Assembly (NCBI GenBank): GCA_025463135.1 | Contig: JAOAPY010000049.1 | Coordinates: forward strand, 62,001-126,000 | Length of the DNA stretch: 64,000 bases | Source: Acidobacteriota bacterium | Lineage (GTDB): Bacteria > Acidobacteriota > Blastocatellia > Pyrinomonadales > Pyrinomonadaceae | Direction of reading: 5' to 3' | Shown: positions 20,129-44,698 of the stretch, piece after piece | Position numbering within the stretch: the stretch's first letter is position 1 | How the letters are laid out: every line of letters starts with the position of its first letter | Made by a program: the position numbers and the translations under genes | Notes under the pieces: generated by a model | Database searches by the model: none | Seen by the model: the letters and a program-made list of their open reading frames with translations, nothing else | What the model was told of the DNA's origin: nothing

Positions 20129-20148
20129 GCGTTGAGGAAAATAAGAAA

Positions 20149-21828: not shown

Positions 21829-21835
21829 GAAAGCA

Positions 21836-22600
21836 ATGCACTCGATACTTGTGTATCACACTATCAGCGAGCCGGCGGTGGCCCTGCCCGGTGACATCGA
21901 TATTTCGCGCGAGAAATTCGCGCGGCAGCTGCAATGGCTTGCGCGCCGCCGCCAGGTAGTGCGGCTTGCTGAAACATTATCAGGGACCAGCAAGCGCCTG
22001 ACGGCGATCACTTTTGATGACGGCTACCGCGACAACCTCACGGTGGCGCTGCCGTTGCTGGAAAAGTTTGAACTTCCGATGACCCTGTTTGTCACTGCAG
22101 GATTTGTCGGTCGCGAAGGATACCTTTCCAGGGACGAACTGCGCGAGATGTCCCGGCATCCCTTGATAACGATTGGTGCTCACGGTCTTTGGCATCGTCA
22201 TTTCACGCTGCTGGACGCCGCCGAAGCACGCCACGAAATGATGGAGTCGCGCAGTCAGCTCGAGAGCATCACGGGCCTGGACGTGGACCTGATGGCCTGG
22301 CCCTATGGAGAGTGCAATGTCGAACTTGAAGCATTGAGCAAAGAATGTGGATACCGCGCTGCCTGGTCCGTGTGGAAGGGAAGCAACGCCCAGCACTCAC
22401 TCTGGCGAGTGCCGCTGGGCCGGCGAGACAACATGCTGCGTTTCATCGCGAAGGCTTCGGGTGCTTACTTTCCTACGAAGGTTTTGGAACAGAAGTGGGA
22501 ACGCTTTAGGAATGGAGGCGACAATTTGGAGTGCGCCGATCCATCGGCGCTTTCGCCAGGTGCGACTCGTCGCAGCCGTTCTTCGGTGGATTCAATTTAG
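21836..22600 (+). CDS. Polysaccharide deacetylase (NodB domain, CE4)
   Basis: A 254-aa enzyme predicted to remove N- or O-acetyl groups from the polysaccharide. TFDDGYRDN supplies the catalytic and metal Asp pair; AHGLWHRHF supplies the metal histidines; WPYGEC lies where CE4 motif 3 is expected. No signal peptide is evident, so a cytoplasmic or unconventional site is possible. ATG 21836 has AGGAAAG just upstream; an ATG at 21800 inside the ligase gene is in frame but less likely. The last 20 or so residues are encoded by GC-rich palindromic sequence (GCCGATCCATCGGC near 22533) and look recently acquired. Confidence 0.85.
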   Translation: MHSILVYHTISEPAVALPGDIDISREKFARQLQWLARRRQVVRLAETLSGTSKRLTAITFDDGYRDNLTVALPLLEKFELPMTLFVTAGFVGREGYLSRDELREMSRHPLITIGAHGLWHRHFTLLDAAEARHEMMESRSQLESITGLDVDLMAWPYGECNVELEALSKECGYRAAWSVWKGSNAQHSLWRVPLGRRDNMLRFIAKASGAYFPTKVLEQKWERFRNGGDNLECADPSALSPGATRRSRSSVDSI

Positions 22601-23866: not shown

Positions 23867-23916
23867 AAACCGAGGCAACAAGATCCAGGAGAAGAAGCGA
23901 GGTTTGCCGAAATTCT

Positions 23917-25116: not shown

Positions 25117-25165
25117 GATGAGGGAAACGATGACGGCAAGTGACCTCAAAGAAGGAGAAAAGAAG

Positions 25166-26323
25166 ATGCGAGTATTGCGTATTGCTCACTCGAGTTTGAC
25201 CCCGGCGCTGCGGCACCGCGAGCGGGCGCTCGTTAAGTGCTATCCGGATGTGGATCTCGAAGTGGTAACGACAAAACGATGGCGGGAAGCCGAAATAGAA
25301 GTCGAAGCGACCGCTGACGATCTGTTCCCGGTGAGAACGGCCCGCACTTACTTCTCAAAGCACATCCAACTTTTTGCCTACGACCCGCGGCCTGTCATCA
25401 GGGCACTGCGCGAGCATCAACCTCATCTTATCGATATCAGTCACGAGCCTTACAGCGTTGCCTGTGCCGAGCTGCTCACTCTGTGTGACTGGTTCGCTCC
25501 TGGCGTTCCCATTGTCATGCAGACCAACCAAAACATTTTTCATAAATATCCGCCACCCTTTAACTGGCTCGAGCGACGGGCCTTCCGGCGGGTGGCCGCG
25601 GCTTATGCGTGCAGTGAAACGGTCGTTGAGGTATTGCGCGCCAAAGGCTTTGAGAAGCCTGCCCCGATTGTTACGTTTGGCGTAGACATCGAGGCATTTC
25701 GTCCCCGACCGGCGGAGCTGAAACGGCCCAATGGACCACTGACCATTGGTTATGTGGGCCGCATGTTACCGGGTAAGGGCCTCAACGTGCTGGCTGATGC
25801 CCTCGACAAGATCAAAGACGAAGCATGGCAACTATTGGTCGTCGGTGATGGTTCCGAGCGTGAGGAATTTGAACGGCGCCTTGACGCCTCAGGTGTTCTC
25901 AATCGCGCGCGCTTCACGGGAGCAATCAACTTTCATCAGGTGCCGGCATATTTTCATGAAATGGATCTATTGGTGCTGCCGACCGAGACCACTAAGAGAA
26001 TTCGGGAACAGTTTGGCCGCGTTCTGGTAGAGGCAATGGCCAGTGGTATTCCCGTAATTGGCTCGACCTGCGGGGCTATTCCGGAGGTCATCGGCGAAGC
26101 CGGAATGGTCTTTCGTGAAGGTAGTGGCGAATCGCTGGCGGCCGCATTGCGTCAGGCGTTGCTCGACCAGGGCCTGCGCGAACGGATGGCCGAGGCGGGA
26201 CTGGAGCGCGTAGGAAGATATTCATGGGAGCGAGTCGCAGAAAAAACTTATCAACTTTATAAGGACGTGATGAGGATGAGGCCCGCTTCGGTTCGCAAAC
26301 CGAGTTTCGAACTGGCGGCCTGA
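25166..26323 (+). CDS. Glycosyltransferase family 4
   Basis: A 385-aa GT-B enzyme (RVLRIAHSSLTPALRHRE, then TIGYVGRMLPGKGLNVLADA). The donor site carries an insertion (PTETTKRIREQFGRVLVEAM), so the first glutamate of EX7E is moved. I place the start at ATG 25166, which has GAAGGAG at 25151-25157. The in-frame ATG 25118 would add a 16-residue charged leader without family support. Sugar specificity is not readable. Confidence 0.9.
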   Translation: MRVLRIAHSSLTPALRHRERALVKCYPDVDLEVVTTKRWREAEIEVEATADDLFPVRTARTYFSKHIQLFAYDPRPVIRALREHQPHLIDISHEPYSVACAELLTLCDWFAPGVPIVMQTNQNIFHKYPPPFNWLERRAFRRVAAAYACSETVVEVLRAKGFEKPAPIVTFGVDIEAFRPRPAELKRPNGPLTIGYVGRMLPGKGLNVLADALDKIKDEAWQLLVVGDGSEREEFERRLDASGVLNRARFTGAINFHQVPAYFHEMDLLVLPTETTKRIREQFGRVLVEAMASGIPVIGSTCGAIPEVIGEAGMVFREGSGESLAAALRQALLDQGLRERMAEAGLERVGRYSWERVAEKTYQLYKDVMRMRPASVRKPSFELAA

Positions 26324-26345
26324 GAATTCAGTCAGGATGTTTTCA

Positions 26346-26372: not shown

Positions 26373-26428
26373 GATCCCAAATCAGGGATTACGGAGTCTG
26401 TTCTCATTCAACGATAGGCTGTTAGTTC

Positions 26429-27775
26429 ATGTTCAAACGTAATATCCAGTTGGTCTTTAGTACGAACGCTCTGATGTTGTCTTCCGGAGTGATCACGAGT
26501 CTGCTAAGCGCGTGGGCGTTGGGACCGACTGGCCGTGGCGATCTCATGGTCGTGCTTATGTGGCCCGCTATCTTCTCCATGGTGGCACAGATCGGATTGC
26601 CGCAGGCGTATCGATTCTGGAGTGCCCGGCGGCCGGAATGCGTTTCGGCCTTGTTCTCAAATGCTGTCCTCTTCACTCTGGTGCTGGGCCTGCTCATGCT
26701 CGGTTTAGCCGAGTTGGTGATTCCGTATCTGATCGGACAACGCAGTCCCGACGTGCTGCACCTCGCCCGCATCTATTTGCTGGTGATTCCGATTCTCATG
26801 CTGACCGACTTGACGCGCGGACTATTGGAGGGGGCGCGCCGCTTTACCTGGGTCGGGGCTTTGCGTTTGATCTTGTTCGGCGTGCAGTTGGGAAGCTACA
26901 TCGTGCTCTGGCTGATAGGAAGATTAACTGTGGCCACGGCTACGTACACGATGATCGCCTCCCTGATTGCGTCTTTGCTGTTGTCGGTGTTTGCCGTTTG
27001 GCATGAACTTCGTCCTCGTTGGGAGCCACGGTCCTCGGAACTGGCGGAAACGCTTCGCTATGGCATTCGCGATTATCCCGGCGTGCTGACTGAATTTGTT
27101 AATTGGCGTATGGACTTGATGATGTTGGTGGGAATGGCATCGAGCAACGCAGTAGGACTATACGTGGTGGCGCTGCGGCTCGCCGACATAACAAGTACGC
27201 TTGCGTCCTCAGTCGGTGATGCGCTGCTGCCGGAGGTTGCCGCTTCGACTAAACCTGAAGAGGCGACGGCAGTGGTGACCAGAAGCTTGCGCCTGACGCT
27301 TACGGCTCACCTGTTGATCCTGGTGCCGCTCTGGATCGCGGCGCCTTACATACTTCGCTTTGCATACGGAAAGGGGTTCGTTCCCGTCACGAATGTTTTG
27401 CGCATGCTGATGTTTGCTTCCGTTGTCTGGAGCGCGGGCGCGATCGTTATCAGCGGCTTAAACGGGTTAGGGCATCCGGGCCTGAGCGCTATCGCCAGAA
27501 TCACTTCGGCGGTTGTGATGATAGTCGCTTTGCTCACGTGGCTGCCGACGAGGGGAATTCAGGGAGCGGCCCTGGCCTCGGTTGTCGGTTACAGCGTGAT
27601 GTTTTTGGTGGCTTTGTTCTGGTTCCTGCGTTTGCGGAAGATCAGTCTCTGGGGTTGTTTGCGGCCGCGTTGGGATGATCTGCCGAACGCGATCACGCCG
27701 GCGGTATTACGCGCGCGGTTTTCCAGAATCGCGGCTCGATCACAAACGGAAGCCCTGATGAGCAGCGTTGATTAG
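26429..27775 (+). CDS. Polysaccharide flippase (Wzx-like), paralogue 1
   Basis: A 448-aa protein with about twelve membrane helices and no large soluble domain, of the MOP/polysaccharide-transport type. It should flip the undecaprenyl-linked repeat unit across the inner membrane. Conserved blocks include TSLLSAWALGPTGRGDL, YGIRDYPGV and LPEVAAS. The same blocks occur in the same order in the gene at 29167, and roughly half of all positions look identical by eye, so the pair arose by duplication. Confidence 0.88.
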   Translation: MFKRNIQLVFSTNALMLSSGVITSLLSAWALGPTGRGDLMVVLMWPAIFSMVAQIGLPQAYRFWSARRPECVSALFSNAVLFTLVLGLLMLGLAELVIPYLIGQRSPDVLHLARIYLLVIPILMLTDLTRGLLEGARRFTWVGALRLILFGVQLGSYIVLWLIGRLTVATATYTMIASLIASLLLSVFAVWHELRPRWEPRSSELAETLRYGIRDYPGVLTEFVNWRMDLMMLVGMASSNAVGLYVVALRLADITSTLASSVGDALLPEVAASTKPEEATAVVTRSLRLTLTAHLLILVPLWIAAPYILRFAYGKGFVPVTNVLRMLMFASVVWSAGAIVISGLNGLGHPGLSAIARITSAVVMIVALLTWLPTRGIQGAALASVVGYSVMFLVALFWFLRLRKISLWGCLRPRWDDLPNAITPAVLRARFSRIAARSQTEALMSSVD

Positions 27776-27856
27776 CGTCTTATCCAATATTCATAACGCA
27801 AGACATCGAGCCTTCAACGCTCGTCGCAAACTAACGGTTTGCGTTACACGCCGCCG

Positions 27857-29170
27857 ATGACCCTCAGATTCCTAATCATCATGGTCCTGCTGCTTGCGTT
27901 GGTCGCGCCCTGCGCCGCCTGCAATCGTCAGAGTGAATGCACCTTCATGCGGGTATCCTCCGGCGCTGCTCGGGCGATTCCCGATGGCTTGGGCGTGAAC
28001 ATCCACTTCACCGATCCGCCGGCGGGTGAAATAAAGATGCTTGCCGAAGCAGGCTTTCGCTGGGTGCGAATGGATCTGAAATGGGATCTGACCGAGGCCG
28101 CAAAGGAGCAATATGATTTCGCTGCCTATGATCGCCTGCTGGGGGAACTCAAACCCTTTGGCATTCGTGCCTTATTCATTCTGGACTATACGAATCCTCT
28201 CTATGACGGTGGTGCGCCACCACGAACAGAGGCAGGGCGACAAGCCTTTGCGCGCTGGGCCGTGGCCGCGGCTGAGCATTTTGCCGGCCGCGGAATAATT
28301 TGGGAGACATACAACGAACCCAATCACGCGCAATTCTGGCCCCCGCGACCCAACCCGAAGGATTATGTCGCGCTGGCGCTGGCCGTAGCGCGCGCCTTTC
28401 GCGAGGCCGTTCCGGCGGAGCAACTGATTGGTCCGGCAACCTCAGGAATCGATTTTGATTTTCTCGAAGCATGTTTTCAGGGCGGTCTGCTCGAATACTG
28501 GTCGGCAGTGTCCATCCATCCATATCGTCGTGGGGATCCTGAGACGGCAGCACTCGACTATTGTCGATTGCGACAAATGATCGAAAACTACGCGCCCCGC
28601 ACCGCCGGCCCGGCGAAGGGAAAGAAACAGATTCCCATCATCTCGAGCGAGTGGGGGTATTCGGCGGGATGGCGAGGTTTTGACGAGGAAAAACAAGGAC
28701 AATTGCTCGCGCGGTCGTGGCTGACCAATACGGCGAATAATATCTCGCTATCGATCTGGTACGACTGGCGCAATGATGGTTTAGATATAGGGGAGCCCGA
28801 ACATAACTTCGGTACAGTCGCACACGCTTATCACGATGGTTGCGAGCCCGTCTACGAAGCAAAGCCGGCATATTTGGCAGCCAGGACGCTGACAACGTTC
28901 TTTCATGGGTACCGCTTTGAAAAACGTCTGGAGGTAGGCAGCGAGGATGACTATGTGCTTGTCTTCCGCAACGCGAATGAGTTTCGAGTGGCAGCGTGGA
29001 CCACAGAGAACCGAGTTCATAAAGTGGTCGTCCCACTCAAAGCCGGTCAATATGCCGGCGTCAGGCATACTGGTGAAAGTACAGGTAATGTCAACTCCGA
29101 TCAGAACGGTGTGGTCATCACCCTAACAACTGCGCCTGTGTACTTTCGTTCGCGAATAGACAACAAATGA
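27857..29170 (+). CDS. Secreted glycoside hydrolase, PslG/GH39-like
   Basis: A 437-aa enzyme with an N-terminal signal (hydrophobic run ending APCAAC, possibly a lipidation site). The TIM-barrel core has GVNIHFTDPPAGEIKMLAEA, the acid/base glutamate in YNEPNHAQFW and the nucleophile glutamate in ISSEWGYSAGW. The layout matches PslG-type hydrolases that cleave or trim exopolysaccharide during export. It sits between two flippase genes; its last bases overlap the start of the second (ATGA). ATG 27857 is preferred to TTG 27839. Confidence 0.85.
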   Translation: MTLRFLIIMVLLLALVAPCAACNRQSECTFMRVSSGAARAIPDGLGVNIHFTDPPAGEIKMLAEAGFRWVRMDLKWDLTEAAKEQYDFAAYDRLLGELKPFGIRALFILDYTNPLYDGGAPPRTEAGRQAFARWAVAAAEHFAGRGIIWETYNEPNHAQFWPPRPNPKDYVALALAVARAFREAVPAEQLIGPATSGIDFDFLEACFQGGLLEYWSAVSIHPYRRGDPETAALDYCRLRQMIENYAPRTAGPAKGKKQIPIISSEWGYSAGWRGFDEEKQGQLLARSWLTNTANNISLSIWYDWRNDGLDIGEPEHNFGTVAHAYHDGCEPVYEAKPAYLAARTLTTFFHGYRFEKRLEVGSEDDYVLVFRNANEFRVAAWTTENRVHKVVVPLKAGQYAGVRHTGESTGNVNSDQNGVVITLTTAPVYFRSRIDNK

Positions 29171-30483
29171 TCTTACGAAACGTCAAACTGGTTTTCGTCG
29201 CCAACGTCATGATCCTTTTTTGTGGCCTGGTGACAAGTTTGTTGAGTGCCTGGGCACTGGGACCCGCCGGGCGCGGCGATCTACTCGTGGTTATGCTTTG
29301 GCCACCGGTCTGCGCGCTGCTGGTGACTTTGGGATTGGATCAGGCGCATCGCTATTGGGTGGCGCGGGATCCGGAATGTGTTTCGACTCTGTTTTCCAAC
29401 GCTATTCTATTCGCGGCGCTTGTCGGTCCTTTAACGCTGGCCTTGTCGGAACTCATCATCCCCCATGTCGTCGGTGATCGCAGTCCGGAGACCATGTGGC
29501 TGGTCCGCATTTATCTAATCAACATTCCCGCGGCTCTCATTCAATTTCTGATGATTGGCTTGCTTGAGGGCGCACGGCGCTTTGGCTGGTCGGGAGCAGC
29601 GCGACTGATCTTCTTTGTCGTACAGGCAGTGGGTTATTTCCTGCTTTGGCTTTATGGCCGGTTGACGGTTGAGAGTGCGGCGCTGACTTTGATCCTGGCG
29701 CAATTCTGTTCGATGTCGTTATCTCTGTTCGCTGTACTTCGAGAATTGAAACCGCGTTGGCAACCGAGTTGGTCCAGGTGGAAAGAGGCCCTTGGTTATG
29801 GCGTGCGCGACTATCCGGGAATTGTGGCGGACTTTACCACGCTTCGTCTGGACCAACTGCTGCTCGGAGGCATGGCCCCGAGCGCGGCGATTGGTCTTTA
29901 TTTCGTCGCCGTGCGCCTGTCGGAGATCACCGCCGTGCTGGCTGGTTCAGTTGCCGATGCATTGATGCCGGAGGTTGCGGCCTCTGAAGTTGACCGCGCC
30001 GAACGGTTGCTCGGCAGAAGCTTGCGGCTGACTCTGTACACGCACCTGCTGGTGCTGGTCCCGCTTTGGCTGGCAGCGCCTTACGTGTTGCGCTATGTCT
30101 ACGGCGAAGGTTTCCTCGCTGCTACCGCGACCTTGCGAATTCTGCTGTTGGCTTCGGTGGTGCTGAGTGCCGCGGGAATTATGATCAGCGGGCTCAGGGG
30201 GTTTGGATATCCGGGGCTTAGCACCATTGGGCGCCTGGCCTCTGCGGTAGTGACGGTGACTGCGTTGCTTGTGCTGTTGCCGCGGCTGGGAATAGTTGGG
30301 GCAGCGATAGCCTCGCTGCTGGGTTATAGCGTCACCATGTTCATCGCCCTGTTCTGGCTGGTCCGCAAAAGAGAATTGGGAGTCTGGGGCTACCTGCGCC
30401 CGCGCCGCGCAGATCTTCCCGTCGCAGATTTGCGAAGGCTCTTAAGGCTTGATGGGTTAAGAACCCGCAACCTGGAAACGTGA
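29167..30483 (+). CDS. Polysaccharide flippase (Wzx-like), paralogue 2
   Basis: A 438-aa polytopic membrane protein colinear with the flippase at 26429 (TSLLSAWALGPAGRGDL, YGVRDYPGI, LMPEVAAS). The 4-bp overlap with the hydrolase gene implies translational coupling. Having two flippases may mean two lipid-linked substrates, for example one polysaccharide unit and one modified by the peptide system downstream; that is inference. Confidence 0.88.
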   Translation: MILRNVKLVFVANVMILFCGLVTSLLSAWALGPAGRGDLLVVMLWPPVCALLVTLGLDQAHRYWVARDPECVSTLFSNAILFAALVGPLTLALSELIIPHVVGDRSPETMWLVRIYLINIPAALIQFLMIGLLEGARRFGWSGAARLIFFVVQAVGYFLLWLYGRLTVESAALTLILAQFCSMSLSLFAVLRELKPRWQPSWSRWKEALGYGVRDYPGIVADFTTLRLDQLLLGGMAPSAAIGLYFVAVRLSEITAVLAGSVADALMPEVAASEVDRAERLLGRSLRLTLYTHLLVLVPLWLAAPYVLRYVYGEGFLAATATLRILLLASVVLSAAGIMISGLRGFGYPGLSTIGRLASAVVTVTALLVLLPRLGIVGAAIASLLGYSVTMFIALFWLVRKRELGVWGYLRPRRADLPVADLRRLLRLDGLRTRNLET

Positions 30484-30750: not shown

Positions 30751-31773
30751 GTGAACAATTTTCAAATTAGCGAGAGTGACCCGAAAGCAGTTGCGGCCAC
30801 TTCAATGAAAATCCGAGTCCCCGTGCCGGAATTCGTGCGTAGTGAGTACTTGCGACCGGAATGCTCTCTGCCGCTTGTCATCAAACCAGCAGGCGCTGCT
30901 GTCGATCTGATTGCGTGGGCTCGCGCCAACCGCGAGTTCCTCGAAACCCGTTTGCTGCAGGAGGGCGCGGTGCTCTTTCGCGACTTTGACCTGCATACCG
31001 CCGAAGAATTTGAACGGTTAATTGAAGCAGTTTCCGGCAAGCTGTTGGACTACTCGTACCGATCGACGCCCCGCACAGCGGTGAGCGGCCACATCTATAC
31101 CTCGACCGAATATCCCGCCCACCAATCGATCCCTTTGCACAACGAAAATTCCTATTCCCACCAATGGCCCACAAAGGTTTGGTTCTTTTCCATGCAAGTG
31201 GCTACCGAGGGAGGAGAGACGCCGTTGGCCGACAGCCGCAAGATCTACCCGCTCATTCCGTCCGAGATCAGAGAGTGCTTCGAGCGCAAGGGATTGATGT
31301 ACGTGCGCAACTATGGCACGGGCCTCGACTTGTCATGGCAGGACGTATTTCAAACGACCGGCAAACTGGAAGTGGAAGCTTATTGCCGCACGTCAGGCAT
31401 CGACTTTGAATGGCTGGGCGAAGATCAACTGCGCACACGCCAATGCTGTCAGGTGTCCGCGAGACATCCACAAACAGGTGAGATGGTCTGGTTCAATCAA
31501 GCTCACCTTTTTCACATCTCGCGTTTGCCCGGCGAAGTGCGCGAGTGTCTACTGGCGACTTTTGCGGCAGAGGACCTGCCGCGAAATGTTTATTTTGCAG
31601 ACGGCAGCGACATTGATCCGGAAATGGTGGACGAGATTCTGAAGGTGTATGAACAGCAGGCAGTGGCCTTTGGCTGGCTCGCCGCCGACGTGCTGCTGAT
31701 TGACAATATGTTGACGGCGCACGGTCGAAACCCGTTCCGCGGAAAGCGCAAAGTGGTGGTGGGAATGTCTTAA
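30751..31773 (+). CDS. TauD/TfdA-family Fe(II)/2-oxoglutarate dioxygenase, SyrP-like
   Basis: A 340-aa non-heme iron enzyme. The iron site is LHNENSY (His-x-Glu variant of HxD, as in SyrP-type enzymes) plus the distal His in LTAHGRNPFRGKRKV, whose Arg binds 2-oxoglutarate. Enzymes of this type next to NRPS genes hydroxylate amino acids, often while tethered to a carrier domain. GTG 30751 is the likely start. It precedes the synthetase gene by 98 bases and is 267 bases after the flippase, a gap in which I see nothing notable. It may open the peptide operon. Confidence 0.87.
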   Translation: MNNFQISESDPKAVAATSMKIRVPVPEFVRSEYLRPECSLPLVIKPAGAAVDLIAWARANREFLETRLLQEGAVLFRDFDLHTAEEFERLIEAVSGKLLDYSYRSTPRTAVSGHIYTSTEYPAHQSIPLHNENSYSHQWPTKVWFFSMQVATEGGETPLADSRKIYPLIPSEIRECFERKGLMYVRNYGTGLDLSWQDVFQTTGKLEVEAYCRTSGIDFEWLGEDQLRTRQCCQVSARHPQTGEMVWFNQAHLFHISRLPGEVRECLLATFAAEDLPRNVYFADGSDIDPEMVDEILKVYEQQAVAFGWLAADVLLIDNMLTAHGRNPFRGKRKVVVGMS

Positions 31774-31871
31774 GAGAGCTCCTCATTCGTTGTTATTTCA
31801 TTATGCGGCCCCTTCGAAGGCCGAGGTCGCAAGGCCGGAATGATATTCATAGACAGTAACCAGAGGTACTG

Positions 31872-34643
31872 ATGGCGCAGGAATTGAACACTGGTTGGAA
31901 GCAGCAGATTGTCGAGACCGGACTGCGTCAAAGTGACGATCCGGCTTATCGCCAGGCGCGAACGCCGCGGCTTGCACATCAACTTTTCGAAGAGCAGGCC
32001 CGACTCGCACCGGACCGTCCAGCCATTTTTTGCCAGGGCAGGGAATTGAGCTATGGAGAATTGAACGCGCGGGCGAATCAACTTGCAGCTCACCTGCGAT
32101 CTCGCGGTGTCGGTTCCAACACGCTGGTCTCGATCGCCGTGGAGCGTTCGCTGGAAATGGTGGTGGGCATTCTCGGAGTGCTGAAAGCGGGAGGCGCCTA
32201 TGTGGCGCTTGATCCGGCTTATCCGAAAGATCGTTTGGAGTTGATGATTGCTGATTCGCAGCCGGCGATTTGTCTGACCCAAAGCGAGCTGGTTAAGCAA
32301 CTCCCACAGTGTCAGGCGCCGACTTTGTTGCTTGATGCGATCTCTTACGCGACCAGCAAAGGTCTGGCTGATGACGCCGGCCCACAATACCGCGATACCG
32401 ATCTTGCTTATGTGATTTACACTTCGGGATCAACCGGAAAGCCCAAGGGCGTGATGATCGCGCAGGGTAACCTTGGTCATTACCTGCCGTCGATGCGCAG
32501 CGCCACCGGCGTCACTTCATCTGACGTCTACTTGCACACCGCGTCAATCTCGTTTTCCTCCTCAGTGAGACAGTTACTGCTGCCACTATCGGTGGGCGCC
32601 GGCATCGTTATCGCTACCACCGACGAGATCAGAGATCCCCTCGAACTATTTGCCACGATCAAACAACAGGGTGTCACCGTCATCGACATTGTGCCGTCAT
32701 ACTGGCGCAGTTGCATCGACGCGCTGCGCAGTCAATCGGCGTCGGTGCGCGCTGAGCTATTGGACAACAATCTGCGGCTGATTTTGTCGGCCAGCGAGCC
32801 GCTGCTGTCGGATTTGCCGCGCGCGTGGAGATTTGAGCTGAACCACCAGGCTGAACTCATCAACATGTTCGGGCAGACGGAGACCGCTGGAATTGTGGCG
32901 ACCTTTCCGATCACACCGGGCAATGATGGTGCGGTGAGCGTCGTTCCGCTCGGCAGACCCATAAACGCTGCGCGAATTTACCTGCTGGATGATGGGCAGC
33001 GATCTGTAGCAGATGGCGAGTGGGGAGAGATTTGCATCGGCGGCCCTACAGTGGGTGTCGGATATTTAAATCATCCCGAGCTGACGGCGGAGCGTTTTAT
33101 GCGCGACCCGTTCGCCGCCGCGGCTGAGGCACGGCTTTATCGCACTGGAGATCTGGGACGGTTGCGTCGTGACGGCACTTTGGAATTTCAAGGCCGTATC
33201 GACAATCAGGTGAAGATTCGCGGGCATCGCGTCGAACCGGCCGAGACCGAGAGTGCCTTGCTGGAACAAAAAGGCGTTCGTGAGGTTGCCGTTCTGGCCA
33301 CTGAAAATGAGCCGGGGAATTTTCGCCTGGTGGCATACGTGGCACTGCAGCCACTGGCGGCGGTGGTGCTTGGCGGTCGCGAACGCTATCGACTGCCCAA
33401 CAACATGGCGGTGATCCAGCAGAACAAGCATGAAACGGATTTCTTCTATCAACAGATCTTTGTTGATCAGACAAACTTCAGGCACGGCATAACGCTCGAG
33501 GACGGCGATTGCGTTTTTGATGTCGGCGCGAACATCGGCTTCTTTACCATGTTTGTCCAGCAAGTGCGGCAAAACGTGCGCGTCTGTGCGTTCGAGCCGA
33601 TACCGGCGATTTTTGAGACGTTGCGCGCGAATACTTTGCTGTATGGACACTCGGAAGGAACCCGTCTGTTTCAATGCGGCCTGGCCGAAGAAGCGAAGGA
33701 AGTCGAGTTCACCTTCTATCCAAACTCAACCAGCCAATCAGGGCGCTATGGAGATGAGAGCGACGAGCGTACGGTGTTGCGTTCAATCATCGCGAACGCC
33801 AAACCGGAAAATGAGAATTCAGTTGAGCAGACGGAACAGTATCTCGACGCGCTGGTCGAGAGTCGTGTCGCCGGCGAAAAGATCAACTGCCGCTTGCGAA
33901 CGCTCTCGGAAATCATCCGCGAAGAAAGCATCGAGCGTATCGACTTGTTGAAGATAGACGTGGAAAAGAGCGAAGCCGACGTATTGGCCGGTATCGCTGC
34001 CGAGGACTGGCAGAAGATTCGGCAGATCGTTATCGAAGCACACGACGACGACGGTCAACTGGGACGGCTGGTCCAACTACTTCGCGACCACGGCTATGCT
34101 GTAGTTGCCGAACAGGATGAGTATCTGATCGGCTCGAGCTTGTACAACGTTTATGCGTCGAGGCTGGAATCCAACACACCTCTAAACGGCGCCGGTCTTT
34201 ACTATGTGCCGATGTTCTCTGACGACATTATTTCAGGCGCAGACCTGCGCCGCTGTCTGCAAACGAAATTGCCGGAGTATCTCGTACCTGCTGAAATTGT
34301 TCTCGTAGATGAACTGCCGCGCCTGCCCAATGGCAAAGTTGATCGCCAGGCCTTGAAGTCTCTCGACCGTCAGCCGCTCACGGCCAGTACGGATTCGGAA
34401 ACGCTGCGCTCTCCGATTGAAGAGCAACTGGCGCAGATCTGGTCTCAGGTACTCAAGCGCGAGACGATCGGCAGCCATGACAACCTTTTTGATCTGGGCG
34501 GTGATTCCATTTTGGTGATGCAAATTGTGGCGCGCGCTGCCAAGGCAGGCCTGCGCTTGACTCCCAAATTGATCTTCAAACACCAGACGATTGCTGAGTT
34601 GGCCGCAGTATTGACGGCGGCCTCCGCAGTCACTGCCGGATAG
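31872..34643 (+). CDS. NRPS loading protein: adenylation domain interrupted by FkbM methyltransferase, plus carrier domain
   Basis: A 923-aa protein with order A(N-part)-MT-A(C-part)-T. The adenylation part (about 20-490) has YTSGSTGKPKG, NMFGQTETAG and YRTGDLGR. An FkbM-type methyltransferase follows (about 500-770; FDVGANIGFFTMF, then IDLLKIDVEKSEADVL), then the A10 region LPNGKVDR (near 822) and a carrier domain with LGGDSI (serine near 880). Pocket residues by my alignment are S-S-R-D-L-A-M-G-I-K: the Asp that normally holds the amino group is absent, so the substrate may not be an ordinary alpha-amino acid. No condensation domain precedes it, consistent with a loading module. ATG 31872. 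Confidence 0.87.
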   Translation: MAQELNTGWKQQIVETGLRQSDDPAYRQARTPRLAHQLFEEQARLAPDRPAIFCQGRELSYGELNARANQLAAHLRSRGVGSNTLVSIAVERSLEMVVGILGVLKAGGAYVALDPAYPKDRLELMIADSQPAICLTQSELVKQLPQCQAPTLLLDAISYATSKGLADDAGPQYRDTDLAYVIYTSGSTGKPKGVMIAQGNLGHYLPSMRSATGVTSSDVYLHTASISFSSSVRQLLLPLSVGAGIVIATTDEIRDPLELFATIKQQGVTVIDIVPSYWRSCIDALRSQSASVRAELLDNNLRLILSASEPLLSDLPRAWRFELNHQAELINMFGQTETAGIVATFPITPGNDGAVSVVPLGRPINAARIYLLDDGQRSVADGEWGEICIGGPTVGVGYLNHPELTAERFMRDPFAAAAEARLYRTGDLGRLRRDGTLEFQGRIDNQVKIRGHRVEPAETESALLEQKGVREVAVLATENEPGNFRLVAYVALQPLAAVVLGGRERYRLPNNMAVIQQNKHETDFFYQQIFVDQTNFRHGITLEDGDCVFDVGANIGFFTMFVQQVRQNVRVCAFEPIPAIFETLRANTLLYGHSEGTRLFQCGLAEEAKEVEFTFYPNSTSQSGRYGDESDERTVLRSIIANAKPENENSVEQTEQYLDALVESRVAGEKINCRLRTLSEIIREESIERIDLLKIDVEKSEADVLAGIAAEDWQKIRQIVIEAHDDDGQLGRLVQLLRDHGYAVVAEQDEYLIGSSLYNVYASRLESNTPLNGAGLYYVPMFSDDIISGADLRRCLQTKLPEYLVPAEIVLVDELPRLPNGKVDRQALKSLDRQPLTASTDSETLRSPIEEQLAQIWSQVLKRETIGSHDNLFDLGGDSILVMQIVARAAKAGLRLTPKLIFKHQTIAELAAVLTAASAVTAG

Positions 34644-34654
34644 CAACGAAAACC

Positions 34655-37600
34655 ATGAGCTTTGAGCTGAGCAATCTGGCCGTTAAGGACGTGACCGCGA
34701 CGTTGGCGTCAGTTTTTCCCGCGCCCGCTGTCGAAGGCACGTTTCCCTTGTCCCCGACGCAGGCGGGAATGCTCTTTCACAGCTTGCTCGCGCCTGACGC
34801 CGGGATCTATCTGGAGCAGATAATTCTGCGTCTTGAAGGCGAATTGGATGTGCGGCTCTTTCAGAACGCCTGGCAGAAGGTGGTGGACCATCATGAGATT
34901 CTGCGGACCTCGTTCAGTTGGGAAGGCCAGGAGAGACCCGTTCAAATCGTGCATCGCCAGGTGACGATGCCGTTCCAAATTCTTGATTGGCGCGAACTCG
35001 GACAGAGCGATCAAGCGAGCCGCCTGGAATCGTTCGTGCGGACGGATCGCATAAGCGGATTCGACTTTACGGCTCCACCGCTGATGCGCATCGCCGTGGT
35101 CCGTTTGGCTGATGACGCGTATCTATTGATTTGGACCAATCATCACGCTTTGCTCGATGGCTGGTCTCAATCGTTACTTCTCAAGCAGGTATTTACCGTT
35201 TATGGGGCGCTGAGCAGCGGCAGCGAACCTGTCCTGGAACCGAGCCCCTCATATCGAAACTATGTCAATTGGCTGGCGGCGCAGGACTCCAGTGAGAGTG
35301 AACGTTTCTGGAAAGAGACGCTTAAGGGTTTCGCCGCGCCAACTTCGCTGGCGATCGATCGCCTTACGACTGACTCGCTCCGCGAAGTCGTAAAGCATGC
35401 TGAATCAGAACTGCAATTATCAAGCGCAGATACCGCGGAACTACAAGCTTTCGCGCGGAAGCATCGGATCACGATGTTCACGCTGGTGCAAGGCGCCTGG
35501 GCCTTGTTGCTGGCGCGCTATAGCGGCACGGATGATGTTGTTTTTGGCTCGACTGTTTCGATGCGTCCTCATGAGTTGCCAGACGTTGAATCGGCGGTGG
35601 GCTTGTTCATCAGCACCATTCCCGTTCGCGTGCGGCTCGGCGCTGAGACTGATTTGATTTCGTGGTTAAAAGAATTACAGCTGGACGCAGTTGAGGCGCG
35701 TGAACATCAGCATACGTCGCTGGTGGACATCCAACGATGGAGCGAAGCGCCAAACGGCTTGTCGTTGTTTGACAGCATTCTGGTTTTTGAGAACTATCCT
35801 GCCGAAGACGATGATGGTGATTCCGGGCGTAGCGTTGACATGCACCGAGAGCGATCGTTTCTCTCCAGGACCAATTATCCGCTTACGTTGCTGGCGTTCC
35901 CGGATAAACAACTGCAACTGATCGCGATCTATGACCGCGACCGTTTCGAACCTGAATCTATACAGCGACTGTTGGACCATCTCCGTACGATTTTGGGAGA
36001 AATGGCGGCCAATCCGACGCGCCGGCTGGACCAGTTTTCACTACTGACACCGGACGAACGACGGCAGCAGTTGGTCGAGTGGAATCGGACCGAGGTCGAG
36101 TATGAAAAGGAACTGCGCGTTAACCAACTAATTGAACAACAGGCTGAGCGTTCACCGAATGCCGTAGCCGTGGTTTTTGAGCGCCAGACACTAACCTATG
36201 CAGAGCTCAATGCGCGGGCGAATCAACTGGCCCACCATCTGCGCGGACTGGGCGTCGGGCCGGAGTCATTGGTTGGCATTTGCGTTGAGCGTTCGCTCGA
36301 CATGATCGTCGGGCTGCTCGGTATTTTAAAGGCCGGCGCGGCCTATGTCCCACTCGACCCCGCGTTTCCGCACGACCGCCTGGCTTTCATGATCAAGGAC
36401 GCCAGTGTCCCTGTGCTGATAACTCAGCAGGAACTTGCCAACGGGCTGCCTCCGCATCAAGCCCGGCTTGTCTGTCTGGATTCTGATTGGGACATCATCG
36501 AGCGCGAGAGCACGACGAACCCGGTTACCGCGGCAGGGAACAACGACCTTGCCTATGTGATCTACACCTCGGGCTCAACCGGTGAACCAAAGGGCGTGCA
36601 GATCGGTCATCGCGCGCTGACAAATTTTCTCTGCTCAGTGCGACGTGAGCCCGGGCTGAACGCCAACGATGTTTTAGTCTCAGTTACGACACTCTCATTC
36701 GACATTGCAGCGCTGGAACTCTATCTGCCGCTGATCGTCGGTGCTCGTCTGGTCATTGCCAATCGCGACACGGCGGCCGACGGTCATCAATTGCAAGAGC
36801 GCGTCAGAGAAACCGGAGCCACGGTAGTGCAGGCGACGCCGGCAACCTGGCGAATGTTAATTGATGCAGGTTGGCGGGGCGATAAGCGGCTAAAGGTTCT
36901 GTGCGGCGGTGAGGCCTTGGCGCGCGACCTGGCGGACCGACTACTCGAATTGTGTGGTTCGGTATGGAACATGTATGGGCCAACGGAGACAACGATCTGG
37001 TCCACCGTGTGGAAGGTCGAGCCCGGAGACGGTCCTGTATCGATCGGGCGTCCGCTCGCCAACACGCAGATCTATCTGCTTGATAAGCACCTGAGCCCGG
37101 TACCGATTGGCGTCGCCGGCGAACTACACATCGGCGGCGACGGACTCGCGCGTGGTTATCTCAACCGGCCTGAGCTGTCCGCGGAAAAGTTCATTCGCAA
37201 TCCCTTCGGCAGCGAACCTGGCTCACGGCTTTACAAAACTGGTGACCTTGCGCGCTATCTACCAAATGGAAATATAGAGTGCCTGGGCCGCAGCGACGAT
37301 CAGGTAAAGCTGCGCGGCTTTCGCATCGAACTGGGTGAGATCGAATCGGTTTTGCGCCGTCACGACCAAGTGCGCGAGAGCGTGGTAATGGCGCGTGAGG
37401 ACACGCTCGGTAACAAACGATTAGTTGCGTACGTCGTTCCGAATTTTCCTGGTCAACTCGACAACGTTGAGTTGCGAACGTACCTGCAAGCGAAGCTGCC
37501 TGAATACATGTTGCCTTCAGCGGTGATAGAGCTGGCGGAATTGCCGCTGACACCCAATGGCAAGGTGAATCGCCGCGCCCTGCCGGCGCCGGATTACGAG

Positions 37601-40600
37601 GCGCAGCTGAGAGATGCTTACGTGCCGCCGCGGACGCCGGTCGAAGAATTGCTCTGCGGTATCTGGGCCGAGGTTCTGAAAGTCGCGCGCGTGGGAATCA
37701 ACGACAATTTTTTTGAGTTGGGGGGGCACTCGCTGCTCGCCACGCAGGTAGTCTCTCGCGTGCTGCAAACGTTTGGCTCGCAATTGCCGTTGCGTGCTCT
37801 GTTCGAGGCGCCGACTATTGCGACTTTTGCGGAACGGGTCCACAGACTATCGAATGAAGAAACAGCGTCGACTTCACCGATTGCTCGCGCAGCAAAACAG
37901 GAAAGTCCACCCCTTTCATTTGCGCAGCAGCGGCTTTGGTTCCTGGACCAGCTGGAGGGCCAGAGCGGTTCTTACAACATCTCGAGAGCTGTGCGTATGG
38001 TTGGTGTCATTGATGTGCCGCTTCTCGAAGAATCTCTCTCGGCAATCGTCGCGCGTCACGATTCGCTGCGCACCAACTTCGAACTAATGGACGGCGAGCC
38101 GCTTCAGACCATTGCCGCTCCGTGGGAAATGAAAGTCTCGCTCGTCGATCTCAGAGGCAAGACTGAAGCGGCAGTGCGGCAAGCGGTGGTGCAAATTGCC
38201 GAGTGTCCCTTCGACCTGGCCCATGATCGACTACTGCGTGCCAGCCTGCTGCAGCTTGACGAACATGATCACGTCCTGTTGCTTACGATGCACCACATTG
38301 TCAGCGACGGGTGGTCCCTCAGCGTTTTGTTTCGAGAGATCGGTGTTTTGTATGAAGCTTTCGTAACTCATCAACCCTCACCACTGGCCGACTTGCCCAT
38401 ACAGTATTCTGATTTCGCATTGTGGCAACGTGAATGGCTGGAAGGCGAAGTGCTCGAGAAGCAGCTCGACTACTGGAGAACGCAACTTGCCGGCGCACCC
38501 CCTATTTTGGAGATACCGACGGACCGGCCCCGACCGCCTATCCAGACTTTCAATGGGGCCAACCATACCCTGGTCGTGCCACCGTCGTTGCGTGATTCAC
38601 TGGTTGCGCTGAGTCGTCGCACGGATACGACGCTGTTTATGACGCTACTCGCTGCGTTCCAGACACTGCTGTCCCGCTATGCCAATCAGGAGGACATCGT
38701 ACTGGGTACTCCGATCGCGAATCGTACTCGCCGCGAGACAGAGGATTTGGTCGGGTTCTTTGTGAACACACTGTTGATGAGGACGGACCTTTCCGGTAAT
38801 CCAGGTTTTCGGGAACTGCTGCGGCGCGTGCGCGAGGTGTCGCTGCAGGCTTATGCGCATCAGGATGTGCCGTTTGAAAAATTGGTTGAAGAGCTGAAGC
38901 CGGAGCGCAACTTGAGTCACATGCCGCTGTTCCAGGTGATGGTTGTGTTTCAGAATGAGCCTGAGGCAACGCTGACGCTGCCGGCGCTCGAGTTGCAGGA
39001 CTTCAATATCCAGAGCGAGATCTCCAAGTTTGATCTAACCCTCTATATCGCTGAATCACCGGAAGGGCTGCGGCTGACTTTTGAATTCAACACGGACCTG
39101 TTCAATGCCGTGACCATCGAGCAAATGGGGAGTCACTTCGCGACATTGTTGGCCGCCGTCGTTGCCAATCCCGATCAGCGTCTTGCAGATCTGCCGTTGC
39201 TGACCGATAGCGAGCGGCGCCGGCTGCTGGTGGATTGGCGCCAGCCGCAAACTCCTTATCCGCTGCGCTGCATTCACGAACTATTCGCAGAGCAGGTGAG
39301 CAAAACTCCCGATGCAACGGCTGTCGTTTTTGAGAATCATCCGATCACCTTTGCCGAGTTGGACCAACGCGCAAATCAGCTCGCACACTATCTGCAGAAA
39401 CGAGGCGTAGGCCCGGAAGTGATCGTGGCCGTTTGCCTGGAGCGTTCTATCGAGATGGTCATCGCGTTGCTCGGAGTTCTAAAGGCAGGGGGCGCGTTTG
39501 TGCCGGTCGATCCTTCCTATCCGGCTGAGCGGGTCGCTTTCCTGCTGACTGATTCACACGCGCGAATAGTACTGACGCAACAGCGAGTGCGAGAGACTTT
39601 ACCGGTTTCCAGCGCAGAGATGATTTGCCTCGACGCCGGCTGGGGCGAAATCTTGCGCGAGAGCAGGAAAGCGCCGGCTTGCGCAGCCACGCCTGAAAAT
39701 GCAGCTTATCTGATTTACACCTCCGGCTCGACCGGAATACCCAAAGGCTCCATCAGTCCACACCGGGCCTCGATCAATCGTTTTGCCTGGATGTGGAATC
39801 GTTTTCCGTTTGCTGAGGGCGAAGTGTGCTGTCAAAAGACGTCGCTGAGTTTCGGCGATTCGATTTGGGAGAACTTTGGCCCACTGTTGCGCGGCATTCC
39901 GATTGTGATCATTCCCGACGAAATGGTTAAGGACCCTCGGCAATTTGTGGCGCTGCTCAATACTCACGGTGTTACGAGGCTGGTGTTGGTGCCGTCGCTT
40001 TTGCGAGTGATCCTGGAGCAGGAAACCAACCTGGCGCAGGCACTTTCGCGCTTGAAATACTGGACCTGCAGCGGCGAAGCCTTGACTCTTGATTTGGCGC
40101 GGGCGTTCAAAGAGCGGATGCCCGATGCCGTCATGATTAACCTGTATGGATCTTCCGAGATCGCGGCTGACGTTACGTGTTACGTGGTTGATGAGCCGGA
40201 TCAACTCGCAACAGTTCCCATCGGTCGGCCCATCACCAATATCGAGTCTTACATTCTTGATCAGTCGTTCGAGCCGGTGCCGGTTGGTGTTTGTGGCGAA
40301 TTGTATATAGCGGGAGCCGGTCTGGCGCGTAGTTATTTTGATCATCCGGAACTGACGGCGGAACGGTTTCTGCCTTCTCCGTTCAGCACTGTTCCCGGTT
40401 CAAGAATGTTCCGCACGGGCGACCTGGCGCGATATCGGGAAGACGGCACGATCGAATTTCTGGGTCGCGCGGATTACCAGGTAAAGATTCGTGGCTTCCG
40501 GGTTGAGCTCGGTGATATTGAATTCGCGTTAAGCCGGCATCGAGCGGTGTGCGAGAGCGTAGTCGTCGCGCGCGAGGACGACTCGGGCGATCGGCGACTG

Positions 40601-41902
40601 GTTGCTTATGTGGTTCCCGTTGCCGGGGCAAAGGTCGATCAAAAAGAGTTGCGCGCGTTTGTGCAACAGAAGCTGCCTGAATACATGACTCCTTCGGTAT
40701 TCGTTGAGCTGGAAAGGCTGCCGCTGACGCCGAGCGGAAAAGTAAATCGTCGCGCCTTGCCGGCGCCGGAATATACCGCACAACTAACGCAGAGCTTCGA
40801 GGCGCCCGGGACGGAATTGGAAAAGTTGCTGGCGATCATTTGGGCCGAAGTATTACGAGTTACTCGCGTCGGCATCAACGACAACTTCTTTGACCTGGGG
40901 GGCCATTCGCTACTGGCGGTGCGTCTCTTTGCGAAGATTGCTAAGACCCTCGGCGTGCACCTGCCGCTCGCGACTCTTTTCCAGGCGCCGACAATTTCGC
41001 AACTCGCTCAGATACTGCGCGAGGAGGGCTGGACGGCGCCATGGTCTTCCCTGGTGCCTATTCAGCCGCAGCGTGGCGACCGGCGACCACTCTTCTGCGT
41101 GCATGCAGTCGGTGGCAACGTGATCGAGTACCACGCGCTATCGCGTTATCTCGGTCCGGACCAGCCATTCTATGCTTTTCAGTCAGTCGGTCTTGACGGC
41201 CGGCAAACACCGCTGCGAAGCATCCAGGAAATGGCAAGCCACTACATCCAGGAGATGCGGGAACTACAGCCGCAGGGACCATATCTTCTGGGTGGGCACT
41301 CGTTGGGCGGCACGATTGCGTTTGAAATGGCCTGTCAGCTTCGCGAGCAAAATGAGCAGGTTGATCTGCTGGCCCTGTTTGATGCTTACCCGTTTGGTTA
41401 TTACAAGCTGCAGGCAGAGGCGCAGTCGCGCACCTATGCGGCCCGCCGCTTCTTCAAGCGCATGAAGTGTCACCTTGATAATCTGCGGCACGTGAAAGGT
41501 AAAGAGAAATTCGCTTATCTGATGCACAAGGCGCAGTTTGCTCCGATCAAGATCAAACAGCAGCTATGGCGCCGGACTTATCGACTGCGGAGATTCAATC
41601 GTGCGTTACCGGCCACGCTGCGCAACATTGAGGGGCTGAACTTTCTGGCGGCGCGCGAGTATGTGCCACGCATCTATCCCGGCCGGGTGGCCCTGTTTTG
41701 GGCGACTGGGGATCTGACTACCAGTTTCGATTTGCTGGACGGCTGGCGCACTCTGGCCGCTGGCGGCGTCGACGTTCACGAAATTTCCGGCAACCACATC
41801 AACATCATCCAGGAACCGCACGTTCGCGGGTTGGCAGCGGAACTAAAGGCCAGCCTGAACCAGGTGCAGCAGACACCCTCAACCACTGTACGCGCCGCGT
41901 AA
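34655..41902 (+). CDS. Nonribosomal peptide synthetase C-A-T-C-A-T-TE
   Basis: A 2415-aa dimodular synthetase. C1 (about 25-465, HHALLDG), A1 (480-985, YTSGSTGEPKG), T1 (LGGHSLLA, near 1020), C2 (1085-1515, HHIVSDG), A2 (1535-2030, YTSGSTGIPKG), T2 (LGGHSLLAV, near 2080) and a thioesterase (2130-2395; nucleophile in GGHSLGG near 2213, His in GNHINII). Pocket residues by eye are D-I-L-Q-L-G-M-I-W-K for A1, close to codes I recall for glycine, and G-D-W-V-T-S-L-A-D-K for A2, close to the beta-alanine code. No epimerase domain. It starts 11 bases after the loading protein. No MbtH or phosphopantetheinyl transferase gene is in the window. Confidence 0.9.
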   Translation: MSFELSNLAVKDVTATLASVFPAPAVEGTFPLSPTQAGMLFHSLLAPDAGIYLEQIILRLEGELDVRLFQNAWQKVVDHHEILRTSFSWEGQERPVQIVHRQVTMPFQILDWRELGQSDQASRLESFVRTDRISGFDFTAPPLMRIAVVRLADDAYLLIWTNHHALLDGWSQSLLLKQVFTVYGALSSGSEPVLEPSPSYRNYVNWLAAQDSSESERFWKETLKGFAAPTSLAIDRLTTDSLREVVKHAESELQLSSADTAELQAFARKHRITMFTLVQGAWALLLARYSGTDDVVFGSTVSMRPHELPDVESAVGLFISTIPVRVRLGAETDLISWLKELQLDAVEAREHQHTSLVDIQRWSEAPNGLSLFDSILVFENYPAEDDDGDSGRSVDMHRERSFLSRTNYPLTLLAFPDKQLQLIAIYDRDRFEPESIQRLLDHLRTILGEMAANPTRRLDQFSLLTPDERRQQLVEWNRTEVEYEKELRVNQLIEQQAERSPNAVAVVFERQTLTYAELNARANQLAHHLRGLGVGPESLVGICVERSLDMIVGLLGILKAGAAYVPLDPAFPHDRLAFMIKDASVPVLITQQELANGLPPHQARLVCLDSDWDIIERESTTNPVTAAGNNDLAYVIYTSGSTGEPKGVQIGHRALTNFLCSVRREPGLNANDVLVSVTTLSFDIAALELYLPLIVGARLVIANRDTAADGHQLQERVRETGATVVQATPATWRMLIDAGWRGDKRLKVLCGGEALARDLADRLLELCGSVWNMYGPTETTIWSTVWKVEPGDGPVSIGRPLANTQIYLLDKHLSPVPIGVAGELHIGGDGLARGYLNRPELSAEKFIRNPFGSEPGSRLYKTGDLARYLPNGNIECLGRSDDQVKLRGFRIELGEIESVLRRHDQVRESVVMAREDTLGNKRLVAYVVPNFPGQLDNVELRTYLQAKLPEYMLPSAVIELAELPLTPNGKVNRRALPAPDYEAQLRDAYVPPRTPVEELLCGIWAEVLKVARVGINDNFFELGGHSLLATQVVSRVLQTFGSQLPLRALFEAPTIATFAERVHRLSNEETASTSPIARAAKQESPPLSFAQQRLWFLDQLEGQSGSYNISRAVRMVGVIDVPLLEESLSAIVARHDSLRTNFELMDGEPLQTIAAPWEMKVSLVDLRGKTEAAVRQAVVQIAECPFDLAHDRLLRASLLQLDEHDHVLLLTMHHIVSDGWSLSVLFREIGVLYEAFVTHQPSPLADLPIQYSDFALWQREWLEGEVLEKQLDYWRTQLAGAPPILEIPTDRPRPPIQTFNGANHTLVVPPSLRDSLVALSRRTDTTLFMTLLAAFQTLLSRYANQEDIVLGTPIANRTRRETEDLVGFFVNTLLMRTDLSGNPGFRELLRRVREVSLQAYAHQDVPFEKLVEELKPERNLSHMPLFQVMVVFQNEPEATLTLPALELQDFNIQSEISKFDLTLYIAESPEGLRLTFEFNTDLFNAVTIEQMGSHFATLLAAVVANPDQRLADLPLLTDSERRRLLVDWRQPQTPYPLRCIHELFAEQVSKTPDATAVVFENHPITFAELDQRANQLAHYLQKRGVGPEVIVAVCLERSIEMVIALLGVLKAGGAFVPVDPSYPAERVAFLLTDSHARIVLTQQRVRETLPVSSAEMICLDAGWGEILRESRKAPACAATPENAAYLIYTSGSTGIPKGSISPHRASINRFAWMWNRFPFAEGEVCCQKTSLSFGDSIWENFGPLLRGIPIVIIPDEMVKDPRQFVALLNTHGVTRLVLVPSLLRVILEQETNLAQALSRLKYWTCSGEALTLDLARAFKERMPDAVMINLYGSSEIAADVTCYVVDEPDQLATVPIGRPITNIESYILDQSFEPVPVGVCGELYIAGAGLARSYFDHPELTAERFLPSPFSTVPGSRMFRTGDLARYREDGTIEFLGRADYQVKIRGFRVELGDIEFALSRHRAVCESVVVAREDDSGDRRLVAYVVPVAGAKVDQKELRAFVQQKLPEYMTPSVFVELERLPLTPSGKVNRRALPAPEYTAQLTQSFEAPGTELEKLLAIIWAEVLRVTRVGINDNFFDLGGHSLLAVRLFAKIAKTLGVHLPLATLFQAPTISQLAQILREEGWTAPWSSLVPIQPQRGDRRPLFCVHAVGGNVIEYHALSRYLGPDQPFYAFQSVGLDGRQTPLRSIQEMASHYIQEMRELQPQGPYLLGGHSLGGTIAFEMACQLREQNEQVDLLALFDAYPFGYYKLQAEAQSRTYAARRFFKRMKCHLDNLRHVKGKEKFAYLMHKAQFAPIKIKQQLWRRTYRLRRFNRALPATLRNIEGLNFLAAREYVPRIYPGRVALFWATGDLTTSFDLLDGWRTLAAGGVDVHEISGNHINIIQEPHVRGLAAELKASLNQVQQTPSTTVRAA

Positions 41903-44352: not shown

Positions 44353-44371
44353 TTGGTGTGTGTCGATTAAA

Positions 44372-44580: not shown

Positions 44581-44582
44581 TC

Positions 44583-44680: not shown

Positions 44681-44698
44681 GGAGTATCGCTGGCATTT

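Follow-up and report, generated by a model that had tools for sequence, protein, structure and literature searches.

We analysed a 64,000-nucleotide stretch of an Acidobacteriota genome of the family Pyrinomonadaceae, here called the window. It corresponds to G000:C18:62001-126000, where G000 is the source genome of 6.48 Mb in 56 contigs, and window coordinates are used throughout. A Wzx/Wzy-type polysaccharide locus at 13847-30483 is followed on the same strand by the genes of a nonribosomal peptide synthetase (NRPS) system at 30751-41902, and the relation between the two is the subject of this study. The original prediction, made from the letters of the window, had placed a dioxygenase, a loading protein and a C-A-T-C-A-T-TE synthetase (C, condensation; A, adenylation; T, thiolation; TE, thioesterase) after the polysaccharide genes on the same strand, and the coordinates, strand and domains are confirmed. 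Below, G numbers denote genomes, C numbers contigs and L numbers DNA stretches, and g3, g6, g9 and g10 are genera of the same class.

Three genes encode the peptide synthetase system

The first gene (30751..31773) encodes a TauD-type Fe/2-oxoglutarate hydroxylase (PF02668, 8e-41), and like all genes of both sets it lies on the plus strand. It has a GTG start, with an ATG at 30805 also possible, and keeps the HNE motif and the distal His-Arg. The second (31872..34643) encodes the loading protein with AMP-binding, FkbM methyltransferase (PF05050) and PP-binding domains, arranged as A core (31977-33371), FkbM (33417-34181), A C-terminal part (34149-34388) and T (34407-34631). The third (34655..41902) encodes the synthetase, C-A(Gly)-T-C-A(beta-Ala-like)-T-TE. 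Its first module consists of C (34730-36064), A (36125-37624) and T (37631-37852), and its second of C (37895-39244), A (39290-40804) and T (40808-41029) with the TE behind them (41060-41854).

The A, T, C and TE domains carry intact motifs, as in a modular NRPS. YTSGSTG is present in all three A domains, called A1 (loading), A2 and A3, and NGKVDR and NGKVNR are found in A1 and A2. SGKVNR of A3, HHALLDG and HHIVSDG were identified by eye. The S-adenosylmethionine motif DVGANIGF, the T motifs GGDSI and GGHSL and the TE motif GHSLGG are also present.

The pocket code of A2, DILQLGMIW, is one that we take to specify Gly, and that of A3, GDWVTSLAD, presumably varies the code for beta-Ala. The codes VDWVVSLAD, ADWVVSLAD and VDWVISLGD are found in paralogues from the same genome. 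In a hydropathy scan the hydroxylase has no transmembrane-like stretch, nor has the polysaccharide deacetylase described below, and the synthetases show single stretches only, inside A domains. These enzymes should therefore act in the cytosol.

The loading domain is interrupted and has an unusual pocket

The loading A domain is interrupted by the FkbM methyltransferase, which follows the LVAYV strand and precedes motif a9, as seen in an alignment with A2, A3 and the domains of G067, G009 and L009. The C-terminal part of the A domain is preserved, as in A domains interrupted between a8 and a9. The insertion recurs in a single-module protein of G067, which is 65% identical in FkbM, 54% in A and 54% in TE. 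Thus, A, methyltransferase and T were all rightly predicted for the loading protein, but the methyltransferase sits inside the A domain and not as a separate domain after it. Methyltransferases between a8 and a9 are otherwise known from interrupted A domains, which the window's domain differs from in the FkbM type of the methyltransferase and in its pocket.

The loading pocket code is SSRDLAMGI, with Ser instead of Asp235, Arg239 and Asp278. Because of the Ser at 235, the substrate should be something other than an ordinary alpha-amino acid. In the predicted order of starter, Gly and beta-Ala, the latter two are plausible from their codes, and the starter would be an unusual acid. We guess that this substrate, X, may be a dicarboxylic amino acid whose distal carboxyl is activated, with Arg239 holding the alpha-carboxylate and Asp278 the alpha-amine.

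In an A-domain tree built from the 30 best matches, the SSRD(L/V)AMGI members and the near variants SSRDISVGV, SVRDLVVGV and ALRDVIIGV form one group with support of 100/99. Its members come from the window's family, a genome from a second family of the class, three Cyanobacteria and metagenome-assembled genomes of a Thiotrichaceae and an Anaerolineales member. Searches of open-access literature gave no match to the A1 code and no title on FkbM-interrupted A domains, and the FkbM domain has no relatives among the solved structures at E 0.001.

The polysaccharide locus

A sugar transferase, glycosyltransferases, Wzx, Wzy, Wzz and Wza are all present in the locus, as in Wzx/Wzy-dependent systems. 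It begins with a Wzz-like chain length/export protein (13847..15424; PF02706, 7e-10; 69% to its G009 counterpart), the tyrosine-kinase-like ATPase Wze (15527..16132; PF13614), a Wza-type Poly_export/SLBB protein (16214..16894; PF02563, 2e-16) and a polyprenyl-phosphate sugar transferase, PGT (17002..18450; PF02397, 5e-69). The glycosyltransferase GT1 (18947..20128; PF00534) is next, and then a Wzy-like polymerase/ligase with several hydrophobic stretches (20326..21828), a call that rests on PF04932 (3e-9), whose family includes ligases too.

A polysaccharide deacetylase, perhaps cytosolic, overlaps it (21716..22600, true start unsure; PF01522, 3e-26). The glycosyltransferases GT2-GT4 fill 22655..26323 (22655-23866, 23917-25116 and 25118-26323; PF00534). 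The flippase Wzx1 (26429..27775; PF13440), a GH5/39-like glycosidase with a hydrophobic stretch at its N terminus (27839..29170; PF00150) and the second flippase Wzx2 (29167..30483; PF13440; 71% to G009) complete the locus. Wzx2 served as the marker for this locus type in relatives.

Short gaps had been predicted along the whole row, and they are found between the NRPS genes (98 and 11 bp). The gap between Wzx2 and the hydroxylase gene is 267 bp, second in size only to the 496-bp gap between the PGT and GT1 genes. Promoter-like matches for sigma-70 and terminator-like matches were at chance level in the scans. A sigma-54 promoter was sought because a sigma-54 activator is encoded upstream, and was rejected, as 55 matches against a mean of 60 in shuffles are chance.

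Before the polysaccharide locus, 582-10379 encodes two PAS histidine kinases, a GGDEF-EAL response regulator and the sigma-54 activator, which suggests biofilm-type control. On the other side, a type I restriction-modification system (HsdR, HsdS and HsdM; 41965-47670) lies on the opposite strand, tail to tail with the NRPS genes. Farther along are a NiFe-hydrogenase small-subunit-like gene (56803-57849) and a copper amine oxidase gene (58332-60368).

NRPS genes recur in this locus type

Window-type Wzx, counted at E 1e-60 or better, is found in 12 of the 162 genomes of the class. This locus type includes NRPS genes in G000, G009, G130, G113 and G144, and across a contig break in G067. G009 and G130 (g10) share one arrangement, all on one strand: GH-wzz-wze-wza-pgt-wzx-wzy-GT-GT-PAP2-NHL (GH, glycoside hydrolase; GT, glycosyltransferase), then [A1-T-C-T]-[C-A-T]-[C-A-T-TE]-TauD-[A-T] and a phosphopantetheinyl transferase (PPTase) gene. 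In G067 (g6), one contig has wzy, a methyltransferase, TauD, [C*-A1(FkbM)-T-TE] and PPTase, where C* is our label for a weakly matching C-like domain. Another has deacetylase, glycosyltransferases, FemAB, wzz, wze, wza, pgt and wzx and breaks off at its end; the two stretches would adjoin.

In G144 (g3), [A-T]-P450-[C-A-T-TE] lies between two locus arms on the opposite strand and does not match the SSRD pattern. In G113 (g9), [C-A-T-TE]-PAP2-NHL-[Wzx-A1-T-C-A-T]-PPTase faces wzy-pgt-wza-wze-wzz and glycosyltransferases. A single open frame of 2169 aa there runs from a whole Wzx into the SSRD-type A domain as Wzx-A-T-C-A-T with no stop between, which may be an assembly fault.

In G113 (2 of 2) and G144 (1 of 1), all condensation domains found in the genome lie in the locus. 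G130 and G009 have 3 and 4 condensation matches, of which the two listed for each genome are both in the locus, and 3 C domains per locus. G067 has one match in its genome and one C* in the locus.

The co-occurrence search thus finds that homologues of the synthetase do not always occur apart from polysaccharide genes, with those of G145, G146, G147 and G149 on another contig. Peptide export by the second flippase, as had been suggested, finds no support: a single Wzx stands beside the NRPS in G009, G130 and G144, and the second flippase does not correlate with the NRPS.

A PAP2 lipid-phosphatase-like membrane protein is encoded beside the SSRD clusters of G009, G130, G113, G145, G147 and G149, and not beside the window's. 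Downstream of the g3 SSRD NRPS (L202:5641-11100 in G145 and L205:8454-13710 in G147) are genes for large proteins, one with weak MAM/fibrinogen-like matches, and for PA-IL-lectin-like proteins. The stretch G126:C161:3704-9742 (L167) holds a glycoside hydrolase, half a TE, TauD, a broken A, T and PPTase with the middle missing, in a genome where no condensation domain was found; it looks like a decayed remnant, an assembly fault being the alternative.

Three candidate markers of attachment or partnership failed. One TE clade (100/99) unites the SSRD-cluster TEs of the window, G009, G130, G067, G145 and G147, but it is not specific because it also takes the non-SSRD cluster C52 of G000 and the second clusters of G147 and G149 and leaves out the TEs of G016 and L011. 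The deacetylase is no obligatory partner, with no match in the G009 and G130 stretches, nor is the FemAB-like gene, with no match in the window.

Single-module members of the SSRD group are also seen beyond this locus type. The A1-T-TE of G016 belongs to a locus that encodes Wza, a Wzz-kinase, NeuB, an epimerase, PPTase and an ABC-2 exporter. On the Anaerolineales contig L011, a related A-T-TE lies between two glycosyltransferases and close to a kinase protein that matches Wzz weakly.

Linkage statistics and the PPTase

A strict DNA pattern for the SSRD A1, which misses G113 and diverged members, is found in 9 of the 162 genomes. Wzx and the pattern occur together in 7 genomes (Fisher 5e-8; 2e-4 without genus g3; 0.004 by genus), tests that take related genomes as independent. 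TauD as an NRPS marker is not enriched, with 36 of 162 genomes overall and 3 of the 12 Wzx genomes. A phylum-wide scan with a narrower pattern finds 3 of 396 genomes, all in the window's family.

Within 20 kb of a Poly_export gene lie 4 of 8 SSRD clusters and 1 of at least 64 other NRPS clusters in 21 genomes (p 3e-4), where 64 is a lower bound and G067 is scored as not near, its contig being without a Poly_export gene. Among clusters with a left flank over 20 kb, the counts are 4 of 5 for SSRD and 1 of 19 for controls (p 0.002), or 3 of 4 by genera (p 0.009), the 19 controls being hand-picked by one rule, namely that the first C domain listed lies over 20 kb into its contig. All these distance p values are rough, as contigs are often short, genomes are related and controls come from among the matches listed.

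The sole near control, on G000:C6, is itself bordered by polysaccharide-type genes. This giant NRPS cluster (G000:C6:63537-129454; L177-L179 and L210) has two TauD genes, A domains of DLTK and VDWV types and an ABC transporter with Wzt_C at its 3′ end, and on its other side are Wza, PGT, kinase and Wzz-like genes and a PPTase. It is perhaps a second NRPS-polysaccharide association. Another NRPS cluster of the genome, on C24, has a lantibiotic dehydratase N-terminal-type protein downstream (G000:C24:29085-31700; L176:9085-11700).

An Sfp-type PPTase lies within the locus in 10 of 11 genomes tested (G002, G009, G067, G113, G130, G144, G145, G147, G148 and G149). In 8 of these 10, no other PPTase match with a frame longer than 240 aa was found, the exceptions being G144 and G147. 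The count leaves out G061, whose wzx is at a contig edge, and G146, whose contig ends in wzx; no PPTase is on the parts read of these two (10 kb for G061). The PPTase of G002 is at G002:C15:195636-196418, in a 100%-complete genome.

The genes, domains and motifs, the insertion point of FkbM and the recurring linkage are read directly from the DNA. With the recurrence across genera, the PPTase in the locus and the frame that joins flippase and A domain, the predicted link of the NRPS to the polysaccharide locus is well supported, and we hold it highly probable that the two form a functional unit.

Discussion

Our preferred reading, held with some reserve, is that the locus NRPS builds a short modified peptide, which is then joined to the sugar repeat unit in the cytoplasm. 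In a likely scheme, the interrupted A domain would load X onto the first T domain, the TauD enzyme would hydroxylate the carrier-bound X and the FkbM domain would O-methylate the new hydroxyl. Gly and then beta-Ala would be added to yield a hydroxylated, O-methylated starter-Gly-beta-Ala peptide. The TE would pass it to the undecaprenyl-linked repeat, at a hydroxyl or at an amine, which the deacetylase may have exposed. Wzx would then flip the repeat, Wzy polymerise it and Wzz and Wza export the decorated polymer. X, the tailoring order, the TE transfer and the acceptor are what we infer in this scheme.

The proposed order of tailoring, hydroxylation before O-methylation, is likely by analogy and follows from two precedents. 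In the synthesis of AMB in Pseudomonas aeruginosa, TauD enzymes hydroxylate carrier-bound Glu and the methyltransferase of an A-MT-T protein O-methylates it (PMC10880069). Almost every FkbM enzyme from a characterised cluster is assigned to the O-methyltransferases (PMC9259500). The NRPS-cluster hydroxylases of TauD kind include Asp and His beta-hydroxylases (PMC12971057). The window's TauD is 71% identical to that of G130, 66% to G126, 64% to G009 and 59% each to G014 and G067. Its nearest paralogue in the same genome (C6, 55%) precedes a C*-A module with the code DLTKVGHVG.

Attachment is the simplest account because the enzymes are predicted to act in the cytosol, Wzx flips lipid-linked repeats, single-module units occur in other sugar loci and PAP2 is associated with the SSRD clusters of relatives. 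Several observations weigh against it or against the linkage itself. A TE usually releases its product, and transfer of the peptide to a sugar by the TE is putative. The 267-bp gap allows separate transcription of the NRPS genes. The window's own locus is without a PPTase, the Sfp-type gene of G000 being on C6.

The NRPS and the locus also part in some relatives. In G145, G146, G147 and G149 (g3), the SSRD-type NRPS is on a different contig from the polysaccharide locus, the sole condensation domain found in G148 lies outside the locus, and G002 has the locus and the PPTase with no condensation domain found in the genome. The Wzx-A junction is seen in only 1 of 162 genomes, and translation of the A protein could begin on its own at an inner ATG, residue 439 of the G113 frame. 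The SSRD A domain of Nostoc and Trichormus belongs to siderophore-like clusters with a FAAL-like starter (a label from a weak A-domain match), TauD, C*, Gly-type modules and adjacent TonB receptors. Hence, the domain itself is not polysaccharide-specific and serves more than one end.

The main rival to attachment is a free small peptide, antimetabolite- or signal-like as AMB is, which would be produced alongside the matrix and exit through a flippase or another exporter, so that the linkage reflects co-regulation. The TE as the usual release domain speaks for it, as does the SSRD NRPS off the locus contig in the four g3 genomes. The closest tailoring precedent also yields a free dipeptide pro-drug (PMC10880069). 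On the other hand, the PPTase stays in the polysaccharide locus even where the NRPS lies elsewhere, G113 has the Wzx-A open frame, single-module A-T-TE units are found in other sugar loci and the three genes at 30751-41902 include no exporter gene of their own. We therefore consider the free peptide unlikely, though the strongest competitor.

Chance neighbourhood or a shared insertion hot spot, in NRPS-rich genomes with often-exchanged surface loci, is very improbable. It would fit the 26 condensation-domain matches of G000 on six contigs, the NRPS architectures beside the locus that vary between genera and the partly shared descent of the locus type. However, the SSRD clusters near Poly_export genes exceed the other clusters in both comparisons above, and in the NRPS-poor genomes G113, G144, G130, G009 and G067 the observed condensation domains nevertheless sit in the locus. 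The lack of TauD enrichment in the Wzx genomes also argues against it.

The beta-hydroxyaspartate metallophores have a canonical Asp A domain (DLTK..) and a C* interface beside TauD. Such a product is the least probable here: relatives of TauD and of the SSRD A domain in Nostoc and Trichormus, where the clusters include FAAL-like starters, C* domains and TonB receptors, recall it, but the window's proteins have no C*, only one hydroxylase and SSRDLAMGI in place of the Asp code, no TonB receptor or siderophore transport genes are among the 33 open reading frames of the window scanned, and O-methylation by FkbM, if it takes place at the hydroxyl, would mask this group.

We assume that L009 and L038 resemble cyanochelin clusters. 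The Nostoc and Trichormus clusters have the SSRD A domain followed by a Gly-type module, as in the window. The cyanochelin-type beta-hydroxyaspartate lipopeptide clusters share the TauD hydroxylase family (PMC12971057), whereas the window lacks the FAAL-like starter, C* and TonB receptor and has the FkbM insertion and the polysaccharide linkage instead.

In the AMB system (AmbB-E), 2-oxoglutarate-dependent hydroxylases act on the residue carried by the A-MT-T, whose methyltransferase O-methylates the new hydroxyl (PMC10880069); the window has genes of both kinds, which may act likewise. AMB differs in its two hydroxylases, Glu-activating A domain, dehydrating C domain, C-T-TE after the A-MT-T and free product. 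The window has one TauD, the SSRD pocket, the FkbM insertion, Gly and beta-Ala modules in a C-A-T-C-A-T-TE synthetase and the polysaccharide locus.

A counterpart of the proposed attachment is the Dlt system, which puts carrier-bound D-Ala onto teichoic acids. In Dlt, as proposed for the window, an adenylating enzyme and a carrier protein supply an amino-acid substituent to a glycopolymer. In the window the NRPS is multimodular and comes with a hydroxylase, a methyltransferase and a TE, and the proposed transfer is cytosolic. No DltB/DltD-like family is found among the 33 open reading frames scanned.

More tentatively, such loci might form a peptidyl-polysaccharide class, a proposal that we put slightly below an even chance. 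A dedicated NRPS with a new A clade and its own hydroxylase and O-methyltransferase would have its TE hand the peptide to the lipid-linked repeat at the flippase, and in the Wzx-NRPS frame of G113 this coupling would take physical shape. We found no paper on an NRPS within a polysaccharide locus in the open-access literature searched.

Polysaccharide matrices are usually viewed as sugar polymers with simple acyl substituents. If attachment is true, the cluster-mining tools that read such NRPSs as makers of free products can misread their role. If so, moreover, a bacterium could place designed nonribosomal peptides on its matrix.

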